Position numbers and translations under genes: made by a program | Source: a virus | Length of the DNA: 35,496 nt | IMG/VR virus record: IMGVR_UViG_3300042914_000555 | Coordinates: 1 to 35,496 of that record | Direction: 5' to 3' (one strand) | Notes under the pieces: model-generated | What the model was told of the DNA's origin: nothing | Databases searched by the model: none | Seen by the model: only the letters and a program-made list of their open reading frames with translations | Shown: piece by piece, positions 4,259 through 27,754 of the stretch | Layout: the number at the start of each line of letters is the position of its first letter | Position numbering within the stretch: position 1 is the first letter of the stretch

Positions 4259-4377
4259 GATTTTCTCCATAGGTTTAAGTTAAGACAGTGATAATTCTAT
4301 CCCCTATGACGGACAGAATTGCAAAAAGATACTTAGGGAAAACCCTTAACTTGACTACAGTGCTAAGGTATTCCAGT

Positions 4378-4500
4378 GGTGCACTATAGTGGTGCAATGC
4401 AGGACTAGGATGCACTGTAAAGGTGCAACACCGCCCCATGCACATCATTGGTGCACAACACTGGTCAATATTTAACCACTGGTCAATAATTGATCACTAG
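4378..4500. repeat. iteron-like short repeat cluster
   Basis: GGTGCA occurs at 4378, 4391, 4422 and 4450, with opposing ATGCAC at 4410 and 4439. A second family, ACTGGTCAATA, is repeated exactly at 4460-4470 and 4478-4488 (18-bp period), followed by a related TTGATCACTAG. The palindrome CACTATAGTG at 4382-4391 lies between the first two GGTGCA copies. The density is much higher than in the adjacent coding sequence and suggests protein-binding sites, either an operator array or a replication origin. Confidence 0.6.
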
Positions 4501-4574: not shown

Positions 4575-4603
4575 ATAATATTGTTGCATCACCACAGCTA
4601 CAA
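4575..4603 (-). promoter_or_regulatory. candidate leftward sigma70 promoter
   Basis: Read on the minus strand this is TTGTAG, a 17-bp spacer, then TATTAT. The -10 matches consensus at 5 of 6 positions and the -35 at 3 of 6. It points at the leftward early operon, whose first gene starts 317 bp away. Its -35 overlaps the first copy of the 19-bp direct repeat, which could make it a regulated promoter. It is the best leftward candidate I found, but moderate. Confidence 0.4.
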
Positions 4604-4649
4604 AAAAGAGTAGAATTGAAGCAATACCGATACAAAAAAGAGCAGAATT
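4599..4649. repeat. 19-bp direct repeat, two copies
   Basis: The sequence TACAAAAAAGAG(T/C)AGAATT occurs at 4599-4617 and 4631-4649 with one mismatch. The 32-bp offset is close to three helical turns, so both copies face the same side of the DNA, as expected for cooperative protein binding. The first copy overlaps the -35 of the candidate leftward promoter. Confidence 0.65.
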
Positions 4650-4841: not shown

Positions 4842-4870
4842 TTGACAAAATAGAAAAAATATGCTATAAT
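4842..4870 (+). promoter_or_regulatory. perfect consensus extended -10 sigma70 promoter
   Basis: TTGACA (4842-4847), a spacer of exactly 17 bp, and TATAAT (4865-4870), with TGC immediately before the -10 (extended -10). The predicted start is 4876-4877. It should be among the strongest promoters in the genome for host RNA polymerase, and it drives the structured leader and then the packaging and virion genes. An inverted repeat CGTTAG/CTAACG lies 28 bp upstream of the -35. Confidence 0.9.
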
Positions 4871-4875
4871 CACCT

Positions 4876-5036
4876 CTATATTGCAACATTAGCGAACATT
4901 AGCGTGGGAGGTTATAGATAAAAACCTCCCTCTAAGTTACCCACGAACTTGTTAGCGATGTACACAATATAGATACAAAAAGCACACTGTTGTGGGTATT
5001 AAATATTTATTATTTGTGTCCCTTTAGGGTGCTTTT
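4876..5036 (+). ncRNA. structured leader RNA, possibly a conditional attenuator
   Basis: Starting at the predicted transcription start, CTATATTG (4876-4883) pairs perfectly with CAATATAG (4965-4972) and closes a rod of about 97 nt. Inside are ACAT/ATGT (4886-4889/4958-4961), AACA/TGTT (4895-4898/4950-4953), CGTGGG/CCCACG (4903-4908/4940-4945) and AGGTT/AACCT (4909-4913/4923-4927). A second module pairs AAAAGCA (4978-4984) with TGCTTTT (5030-5036) around a small CCC-TTTA-GGG hairpin. An exclusive alternative fold exists: GGGAGGTT/AACCTCCC (4906-4913/4923-4930) frees TACCCAC (4938-4944) to pair with GTGGGTA (4992-4998), which crosses the 3' module. This could be a small RNA or a 5' regulatory element of the 5066 gene. 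I recognise no known family. Confidence 0.5.
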
Positions 5037-5065
5037 AACAATATTGACTATATAAGGAAAACAGT

Positions 5066-5287
5066 ATGAAACCACTGAAAAATGCTATTCGTAAAGTTGT
5101 TTCTGGTGCTGGCATCAAACCCAGGTCTCCAGTAAAGCCTATCACTGGTGGCATGGCTGGTGGTGTCCGTTCTGTTGTATCAAAGCCGACTATGCCTACT
5201 CGTTTAACATCAAAGCCTGCAATGCCGGGACGTGCTGCAGCCGCACCGAAAGCAATCGCTAAAGCAAAACAAATGAAGAAGAAGTAA
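5066..5287 (+). CDS. small highly basic protein
   Basis: A 73-residue protein rich in Lys, Arg, Pro and Ala, ending in KQMKKK, with no acidic residue. A local repeat is visible (SKPTMPTR, then SKPAMPGR). AAGGA lies 7 nt before the ATG. It is the first gene after the strong promoter and structured leader and sits just before the putative small terminase. The composition suggests DNA or RNA binding, perhaps as a virion or packaging component. No family is recognised. Confidence 0.7.
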   Translation: MKPLKNAIRKVVSGAGIKPRSPVKPITGGMAGGVRSVVSKPTMPTRLTSKPAMPGRAAAAPKAIAKAKQMKKK

Positions 5288-5295
5288 GGACAATA

Positions 5296-5709
5296 GTGGA
5301 AACAAAGACAGAGGATAAAACCGAAGTCTCTTCCGTAGTAGTAAAAAATAAGAATGGCGCTGGCCGTCCAAAGAAGTCAGCTATTGAGGCCAAGAAGAAG
5401 AGAGAACTTCGTGGTAGACCGCCTGGTGAAGCAGCACGCATAAGGGAGTTCCATGCAAGGCTGCTGACCACCAAAGGCGATCACATCATTGAGACAATTA
5501 TTAAGAAAGCCTTAGATCCCACCGATAAGGATCAGGCCGCGATGTTGAAGATGTGTGCCGATCGCCTGTTACCGCTGTCTTACTTTGAGAACAGCAAGAC
5601 TGAAGGCAAATCTGGCATTACCATTAACATCAGCGGTATCGGCGCTACTGTTAGCGCAGAAGACAACATAATTGAAGCTGAGGACGTAGACTTTGAATCT
5701 GGACATTAA
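5296..5709 (+). CDS. putative small terminase subunit / DNA-packaging protein
   Basis: A 137-residue protein starting at GTG (5296) with AAGGA 5 nt upstream. The N-terminal third is basic and carries two GRP cores resembling AT-hooks (GAGRPKK and LRGRPPG), suited to DNA binding. A helical middle follows (IIETIIKKALDPTDKDQAAMLKM), then an acidic C-terminal tail. Position is the main support: it lies directly before the large terminase and overlaps it by 17 bp, as small terminases commonly do. The sequence alone does not prove the function. Confidence 0.65.
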   Translation: METKTEDKTEVSSVVVKNKNGAGRPKKSAIEAKKKRELRGRPPGEAARIREFHARLLTTKGDHIIETIIKKALDPTDKDQAAMLKMCADRLLPLSYFENSKTEGKSGITINISGIGATVSAEDNIIEAEDVDFESGH

Positions 5710-6946
5710 GCTACTACCTTGGCAACAAGATGTCTGGAATGACCAGACCAGGTTTAAAGTAGTTGCTGCTGGCCGCCGCACTGGTAAAAGTAGATTAGCG
5801 GCATGGATGCTCATAGTTGAGGCACTACAGGCAAACAAAGGTAATGTCTGGTATGTTGCTCCTACGCAAGGCCAAGCCAGAGACATTATGTGGCTCACGT
5901 TGTTGGAACTAGGACACCCCGTTATTGAGTCCAGCCATGTAAACAATATGCAGATCAAACTGGTCAATGGCGCGATGATTAGTCTTAAAGGCGCTGATAG
6001 ACCAGAAACAATGCGTGGTGTCTCATTGAGGTTTGTTGTGCTTGATGAGTACGCTGACATGAAGCCTGCCGTGTTTGAGCAGATCTTGAGGCCAGCACTG
6101 GCAGATTTAAAAGGCAAGGCACTGTTCATCGGTACTCCGATGGGACGAAACCATTTCTATGAACTGTACGAATACGGAAACCGTGGAGAAGACAAAGATT
6201 ACAAATCCTGGCACTTTACCAGTTTTGACAACCCGCTCCTCGATCCAGCAGAAATTGAAACCGCAAAGAAAAGTATGTCTTCTTTTGCGTTCAGAACCGA
6301 GTTCATGGCCTCCTTCGAAGCAGCCTCTGGTGGCATCTTCAAAGAAGAGTGGTTAAAGTTTGATGACATCGAACCTGACAATGGCCGTTACTTTATCGCA
6401 GTAGACTTGGCTGGCTTTGAAAATGTAGCTGCTGCCACAACAGCAAAAAAGAAGAGATTAGACCAATCAGCTATCGCAGTTGTAAAAGTAACATCAGATG
6501 GCTGGTATGTCAAAAGCATTGAATACGGTAGATGGGACATTAAAGAGTCAGCACAAAGAATCTTTGATGCTGTAAGAGATTATGAGCCTGTGTGTGTTGG
6601 CATCGAAAGAGGCGCACTAAAGAATGCTGTGTTGCCTTACCTTAGCGACTTAATGCGTAAGTACAACACTTACTTTAGGGTTGAAGACCTAACACACGGA
6701 AATAAGAAGAAAACAGACAGAATTACTTGGTCACTGCAGGGCAGGCTTGAACACGGAAAGATCGTGTTTAACAAAGGCGATTGGAACAGCGAAGTGGTAG
6801 ATGAACTACTTAACTTTCCTAACCCACAAGTCCATGATGACCTTATTGATGCCTTGTCGTACATTGACCAGATTGCCATAGCAGAGTATGTGCAATACTA
6901 CGATGAAGAAGATTTTAGACCAATGGATGCCGTTGCTGGCTACTAA
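5693..6946 (+). CDS. terL: terminase large subunit
   Basis: DNA-packaging motor: an ATPase that pumps phage DNA into the procapsid, joined to a nuclease that cuts concatemers. The N-terminal ATPase has Walker A AGRRTGKS (26-33) and Walker B FVVLDEYAD near residues 112-120. The C-terminal RNase H-like nuclease shows VDLAG near 229 and HDDLIDAL near 381-388, with metal-binding aspartates. At 417 residues it is on the short side for the family. The most likely start is TTG at 5693, preceded by GAGGA 8 nt upstream; no ATG is available nearby. It overlaps the putative small subunit by 17 bp. Confidence 0.95.
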   Translation: MNLDIKLLPWQQDVWNDQTRFKVVAAGRRTGKSRLAAWMLIVEALQANKGNVWYVAPTQGQARDIMWLTLLELGHPVIESSHVNNMQIKLVNGAMISLKGADRPETMRGVSLRFVVLDEYADMKPAVFEQILRPALADLKGKALFIGTPMGRNHFYELYEYGNRGEDKDYKSWHFTSFDNPLLDPAEIETAKKSMSSFAFRTEFMASFEAASGGIFKEEWLKFDDIEPDNGRYFIAVDLAGFENVAAATTAKKKRLDQSAIAVVKVTSDGWYVKSIEYGRWDIKESAQRIFDAVRDYEPVCVGIERGALKNAVLPYLSDLMRKYNTYFRVEDLTHGNKKKTDRITWSLQGRLEHGKIVFNKGDWNSEVVDELLNFPNPQVHDDLIDALSYIDQIAIAEYVQYYDEEDFRPMDAVAGY

Positions 6947-9233: not shown

Positions 9234-9262
9234 TTGACAAATTACTAAAATAGTGGTATAAT
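9234..9262 (+). promoter_or_regulatory. perfect consensus extended -10 sigma70 promoter, internal
   Basis: TTGACA (9234-9239), exactly 17 bp, TATAAT (9257-9262), with TGG before the -10 (extended -10). It lies in the only sizeable gap between portal and scaffold genes. The predicted start, 9269-9270, coincides with the A of the next ATG. It would boost expression of scaffold and capsid genes. Confidence 0.9.
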
Positions 9263-9269
9263 ATACGCA

Positions 9270-9506
9270 ATGTCGCCAGAATTACAACAATATTACGAAG
9301 ACAGACTATCAATGATGTCTAGCAGAGCCTGGACACAACTCATTGAAGACCTTCTGGATATGCGTACTAACTACGAAAATATCCGAAACTGCGACAAAGA
9401 CACAGTAGAGTTCCGAAAAGGACAAGTAGACATCCTAGACTACTTAATTGGATTAAAGGATCTGTCTGAAAAAGCCTACGAGGAGCTAAATGAAAAGATA
9501 TTTTGA
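9270..9506 (+). CDS. hypothetical protein, probably from a leaderless mRNA
   Basis: A 78-residue helical acidic protein (MSPELQQYYEDRLSMM...). The ATG lies 8 nt after the -10 hexamer of a perfect promoter, so the transcript should begin at or one base before the start codon. No Shine-Dalgarno sequence precedes it. Internal Mets at residues 15-16 are possible alternative starts, but they lack a good site too, and the MSPELQ-type N-terminus resembles small phage proteins I recall. The end overlaps the next gene by 17 bp. The function is unknown. Confidence 0.75.
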   Translation: MSPELQQYYEDRLSMMSSRAWTQLIEDLLDMRTNYENIRNCDKDTVEFRKGQVDILDYLIGLKDLSEKAYEELNEKIF

Positions 9507-27707: not shown

Positions 27708-27733
27708 AAAAAAAAGAGCCTCCGAAGAGGCCC
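27708..27733 (-). terminator. leftward rho-independent terminator with UUCG loop
   Basis: On the minus strand GGGCCTC pairs with GAGGCTC (one G-U) around TTCG, followed by eight T residues (complement of 27708-27715). It ends the replication operon, 22 bp after the small gene at 27755-27877. The plus-strand side lacks a U tract, so it is a poor stop for the virion operon arriving from the left; another hairpin, TGTCGG/CCGACA (27657-27684), directly follows the endolysin stop but also lacks a U tract. Confidence 0.9.
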
Positions 27734-27754
27734 TGTTAAGTCCAACGCCCTAGA

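Follow-up and report, generated by a model that had tools for sequence, protein, structure and literature searches.

The late mRNA of this phage very probably begins with a structured leader RNA, a branched rod of about 97 nt that is closed by its own 5' end and stops short of the ribosome-binding site of the first gene. As for the main role of this leader, the reading that we favor, with a probability of roughly 0.45, is that it may protect the 5' end of the late mRNA, following a logic similar to that of the ompA leader.

The leader and its genomic setting

The window, i.e., the whole stretch of 35,496 bases analyzed here, is an IMG/VR virus record, and its source is an uncultivated aquatic phage. 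The virion genes occupy the + strand (5066-27656), while genes for primase-helicase, DNA polymerase, exonuclease, and ribonucleotide reductase are found on the − strand on both flanks of the virion block. Since no RNA polymerase family was matched among the window proteins scanned, the late mRNA is presumably made by the host polymerase. No isolated phage is close, with no DNA match to the window; the best TerL identity to isolated phages (Pelagibacter, Roseobacter, and others) is 29%, and portal identities are 21-26%. Bacterial genomes contain a single TerL relative (62%), in a MAG labelled Euryarchaeota, which is uninformative on the host.

The features of the leader region and of the genes that follow it are listed below.

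4842..4870, + strand: extended −10 sigma-70-type promoter, TTGACA-N17-TATAAT with TG before the −10 (12/12 match)
4876..4972, + strand: rod-shaped leader RNA closed by its own 5' end (minimum-energy fold, z-score, covariation in 18 homologues)
4876..4883, + strand: 5' terminal arm CTATATTG, at the predicted start, pairing with 4965-4972
4886..4898, + strand: 5' strand of the middle helices (ACATT, GC, AACA), pairing with 4950-4961
4906..4930, + strand: apical hairpin GGGAGGTT-ATAGATAAA-AACCTCCC, near-invariant in 12 close rods
4965..4972, + strand: 3' arm of the closing helix, CAATATAG (fold and covariation)
4978..5036, + strand: second hairpin module (minimum-energy fold), complete in no sequences but the window, L037, and L212, with part of the 3' half shared by others
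5039..5054, + strand: ribosome-site-side element CAATATTG-A-CTATATA, third CTATAT-type copy and alternative partner of the 5' arm
5054..5058, + strand: Shine-Dalgarno (SD) sequence AAGGA, predicted unpaired (~0.7-1.0 per base; mean of 0.90 over −14..−4)
5066..5287, + strand: 73-aa basic protein with no assigned function, first gene past the leader, found only in the window, L037, and L212
5296..5709, + strand: probable terminase small subunit (gene order and position; N-terminal similarity among relatives)
5693..6946, + strand: terminase large subunit (phrog_2, E-value of 2e-46)

Neither the 73-aa protein nor the putative TerS has a match in Pfam or PHROG. The gene for the former, KP-rich and located between the leader and terS, is fast-diverging, with 75% DNA identity beside 97% for the leader. 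Elsewhere in the window, the GC skew turns near the leader region, where gene direction turns as well. The intergenic stretch before the early genes (4340-4494) contains several short repeats (GGTGCAC, CACTGGTCAATA) of operator- or origin-like appearance. Upstream of the promoter (4584-4647), repeats with the core GATACAAAAA resemble the rod end at 4965-4981 (88% over 17 nt) and could possibly be binding sites. On the − strand, a good terminator, AGGGCCTCTTCGGAGGCTCT followed by a T run, lies at 27715-27734, close to where the late and early gene blocks converge.

The sequence-only reading had placed the leader directly at a perfect promoter, which is borne out by the 12/12 match, and we infer from this promoter a transcription start at 4876-4878. 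In most relatives in which terS-terL opens the late operon, a strong promoter is found ~0.5-2 kb upstream of terL. By itself, the promoter pattern does not mark the clade, as it occurs in unrelated contigs too. The leader was also said to stand before all virion genes. Its position indeed holds, but the statement has to be qualified because the virion operon contains, at 9234-9262 between the portal gene and a 78-aa ORF at 9270, another perfect promoter of the extended −10 type (12/12). To judge from its position, an mRNA made from this second promoter would be leaderless, with a predicted start within 1-2 bases of the ATG. A promoter of this type is found at the same place in L004, L006, L012, and L040, and the equivalent promoter in the more distant L091, L115, L122, and L158 has a leader of variable length, which in L115 carries a 5' hairpin.

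When folded, the RNA 4876-5040 reaches −47.1 kcal/mol, compared with −30.9 ± 3.7 for its shuffles (z-score of −4.4), none of 200 being as good. The predicted transcript had been described as starting with an 8-nt arm that pairs with 4965-4972 and encloses inner helices, followed by a second module at 4978-5036. All of these are present in the minimum-energy fold, including the closing helix 4876-4883/4965-4972 (pair probability of ~0.86), the absence of which was to count against the description. No known RNA class had been recognized in the leader, and Rfam concurs, with no match above the gathering threshold and only chance-level matches at a relaxed threshold.

Homologues, covariation, and conservation

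Homologues were collected from IMG/VR through a TerL search, which gave 80 related loci, a search with the hairpin core, which gave 17, and a search with the promoter pattern, which gave 120 matching stretches, many of them from relatives. Among TerL relatives of 86-95% identity, the leaders fall into three sequence groups that follow a common plan (transcription start, rod, ribosome site, terS). Group A is window-like and has the core hairpin. Group B differs in sequence, its rod starting with ATATTGATAGCAC and ending with GTGCTGATCTATATTGG, adjoining the ribosome site, and group C has only the outer arms in common.

In the 11 group A rods aligned by plain MAFFT, 92.8% of the cells pair and three pairs are double-changed, and 7 of 500 shuffles reach the covariation score. 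A covariance model built from group A recovers L048/L049, L043, and four group C loci (E-values of 2e-10 to 3e-4), model R1 scoring at ~1e-23 or better in close members and ~3e-4 in distant ones. The arms of L043 are swapped, with TCAATATAG/CTATATTGA in place of the CTATATTG/CAATATAG of the window, which led to its misalignment by sequence alignment and was handled through the covariance model. In the resulting alignment of 18 distinct loci, 89% of the cells pair and double changes occur at 10 of 27 pairs (32 cells), compared with 10.3 ± 2.3 cells in shuffles, 0/500 of which reach 32, and 0-8 cells in slid controls; this alignment was fitted to the structure and is biased towards it, and kinship inflates the contrast with the shuffles. 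Although the structure-fitted alignment leans towards the fold, an alignment-free arm-swap test agrees with it, native arm pairs binding better than swapped ones in group A (p ~0.005) and group B (p ~0.007), with no signal in group C alone (five sequences). Covariation in homologues was the deciding test that the sequence-only reading had named, and its outcome supports the rod.

The changes are distributed over the rod. In the closing helix, partner changes covary at one pair (A-U/U-A), L043 having A-U for U-A, and in the middle helices we see compensatory changes from A-U to G-C and from C-G to U-A. In the apical hairpin, a single loop position varies (T/A) among the 12 close rods, and this hairpin is unique to the clade among the viral contigs searched; in L048/L049 and group C, it is replaced with compensatory pairs.

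Promoter and rod are 98.5% identical between the window and L212 or L037, for which the 73-aa gene and terL show 75% and 78-84%, respectively, and 90-95% identical between the window and L044, L002, or L050, for which terL shows 78-88%. That a noncoding stretch is better conserved than terminase coding DNA argues for promoter and rod being functional, as far as sequence comparison goes, and mosaic exchange, in view of a portal gene with 96% identity in L037, may add to their identity. Farther away, a TerL group of ~68% identity, of which L070 was examined directly, is without a comparable leader and has terL in another gene order. There is no strong long-range 5' pairing in L028, L059, L074, L094, and L164. 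A small GTATT/AATAC stem opens even the short leaders (31-34 nt) found in a distant clade.

Pairing of the 5' end and competing explanations

Many leaders contain CTATAT-type elements in three places: at the transcription start (+1), near +90, and 16-19 nt upstream of the start codon. The 5' arm is predicted to pair with the second of these, i.e., the rod arm, in the window, and with the third, on the SD side, in L001, L002, L003, L044, and L048. Whichever the partner, the 5' end is paired at a probability of 0.57-1.0 in 16 relatives. The SD region, unpaired at 0.90 in the window, is unpaired mostly at 0.6-0.98 in relatives and at 0.34-0.52 in three of them. Across 40 divergent leaders, the pairing of nt 3-10 is 0.63, compared with 0.46 in shuffles (p = 0.001), while that of the SD region is slightly below the shuffled value (0.39 vs. 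0.44, p = 0.06). As modeled, the conserved property is thus a paired 5' end with a ribosome site that is usually open. These are two of the features of a 5'-terminal stabilizing stem-loop: the helix begins at the predicted start (4876, ~0.86), and the ribosome site is single-stranded by prediction.

The sequence-only reading had seen in the leader the logic of a riboswitch or attenuator, in which CGTGGG/CCCACG (4903-4908/4940-4945) gives way to GGGAGGTT/AACCTCCC (4906-4913/4923-4930), freeing TACCCAC (4938-4944) to pair with GTGGGTA (4992-4998), the 3' module acting as terminator. The complementary segments all exist, and RNAs ending at about 5000-5010 have the GTGGGTA state as their lowest-energy fold. 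However, the first two folds, described as mutually exclusive, are near-equal rearrangements within one rod (−46.9 vs. −47.1 kcal/mol for the leader 4876-5065), and in the full leader, the GTGGGTA state costs 8 kcal/mol. The switch itself fails on comparison: its driving pairing occurs only in the window and the near-identical L037 and L212, CGTGGG/CCCACG is lost in most relatives, and the 3' module is lineage-specific, the ribosome site of L038 directly following the rod. The two alternatives are consequently not conserved among relatives as exclusive folds. The short U tract (four T), conceded from the start as a weakness, is reduced to three in L037/L212, where the outer pair of the module is also broken, and no terminator was called in the 3' module or at 5036. 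Neither termination nor SD sequestration is apparent, the SD being open in most relatives whichever the state, and no leader peptide with codon runs is seen in the sequence. A riboswitch or attenuator is thus very unlikely. Less probable still is that processing or termination yields a separate small RNA from the leader. The compact closed rod and the good hairpin that follows it in the window would fit such an RNA, but no strong terminator was detected, and where the ribosome site lies directly 3' of the rod, as in L038 and in groups B and C, there is no room for one. In our models, competition for the 5' arm between the rod arm and the ribosome-site element is more widespread than the proposed switch. 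By exchanging one partner for the other, the arm could make the first late gene more or less accessible, perhaps with a phage protein in control. This is suggested by the CTATAT-type elements, of which there are three (at +1, at +90, and at −18 from the start codon), and by a favored partner that varies among close relatives (the rod arm in the window; the SD side in L001, L003, L044, and L048). Such a translation switch is improbable: in most relatives, the SD remains open whichever partner is used, the 5' arm and the SD-side element show slight covariation on inspection, and L038 does not have this element at all. The autoregulatory mRNA operators of T4 genes 32 and 43 are likewise structured leaders ahead of a phage gene, but they lie on or beside the ribosome site, which they block, whereas the site next to the rod is predicted to be open.

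The late promoters of lambdoid phages (Q system) carry, within the first bases to be transcribed, a −10-like element that causes pausing. The promoter discussed here is also a late one, with a TATAT-like sequence at +2 to +7; unlike in the lambdoid system, no Q-like gene was identified, and a 3' arm that is paired is not accounted for by pausing. The most attractive alternative to protection is put-like processive antitermination, in which the nascent rod would bind the elongating host polymerase, which would then read the 22 kb operon through terminators. The putL RNA of HK022 starts at nt 3 of the transcript just downstream of PL, is ~70 nt long, and has an effect that extends for 10 kb or more (PMC9378689). 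The rod resembles it in being structured, within a few nucleotides of a phage transcript start, and ahead of a long operon, and its apical hairpin is near-invariant in the close group. Still, put RNAs consist of two adjacent stem-loops, ~70 nt of conserved sequence (PMC9378689), joined in a V with specific contacts, whereas we find one branched rod, the sequence of which is largely replaced between groups. Moreover, put acts in early operons, through the zinc-binding domain of the polymerase, and the rod precedes a late operon in which terminator-like sites are at chance (11 vs. 9.2; 8 vs. 9.2) and in which the second perfect promoter at 9234 lowers the need for long read-through. This explanation is therefore weakened, and we consider it unlikely. 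Slightly less probable, in our judgment, is that the inverted repeat acts at the DNA level, as a replication origin, a packaging site, or an operator for a repressor, in the region of the divergent promoters and with half-sites of the CTATATAG type. CTATATAG is palindromic and recurs in many relatives at the transcription start, at the end of the rod, and at the ribosome site; the z-scores of the fold are similar on both strands, G-U and A-C counts (12 vs. 10 cells) do not distinguish RNA from DNA, and the GC skew turns near the region, though so does gene direction. On the other hand, the pairing profile across leaders is highest over the predicted +1 to +8 rather than in the −35 region, a partial test since the −10 element is a second high region, and the arms change together, middle helices included, which a protein site need not do.

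Proposed protection of the late mRNA

Protection of the 5' end remains the reading that we favor. Both RppH and RNase E depend on single-stranded 5' ends, and 5' structures stabilize mRNA (PMC3997798), so a conserved combination of paired 5' end and open ribosome site is best fitted by protection. In the mechanism that we propose, a host-type RNA polymerase acting at a very strong promoter would produce the main late (virion) transcript with its structured 5' leader, the first 6-8 nucleotides of which would be paired once the rod is complete. The rod would stop short of the ribosome-binding site and leave it open. The late mRNA of ~22 kb would be shielded from 5'-end-dependent decay (pyrophosphate removal by RppH, 5'-tethered RNase E), and translation of the first gene would stay efficient through the open site. 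In addition to the transcription start, we infer here that the late genes depend on this transcript and that the rod protects it.

The closest known systems are leaders of the ompA type and bla with an added 5' hairpin, which, like the rod, have structure from the 5' end itself, an open ribosome site, and a sequence that is free to vary. The rod differs from them in being ~97 nt long and branched, in having two possible partners for the 5' end, and in belonging to a phage late operon, its stabilizing effect being a prediction. The large apical part of the rod speaks against protection since it exceeds what 5'-end protection requires. So do the relatives with no strong long-range 5' pairing, the distant TerL group with no comparable leader, and the folding statistics and G-U counts, which do not single out the RNA strand. 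The near-invariant hairpin loop in the close group suggests, from sequence, that something may bind it.

A bolder view is that the leaders form a new phage late-leader RNA family, with the three short CTATAT-type elements, one each at the start, the end of the rod, and the ribosome site, in competition for the 5' end and providing a device, protein-free or controlled by a phage protein, that would couple 5'-end protection, elongation, and first-gene translation; this we hold to be unlikely. Although uncatalogued in Rfam, the leader is a variant of a known sort of element; a new riboswitch would have been more of a surprise. The rod nevertheless represents a well-defined RNA family, better conserved than terminase coding DNA and with clear covariation. 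If protective, it shows how a phage with no detected RNA polymerase and one very strong host-type promoter could keep a late transcript of 22 kb alive.
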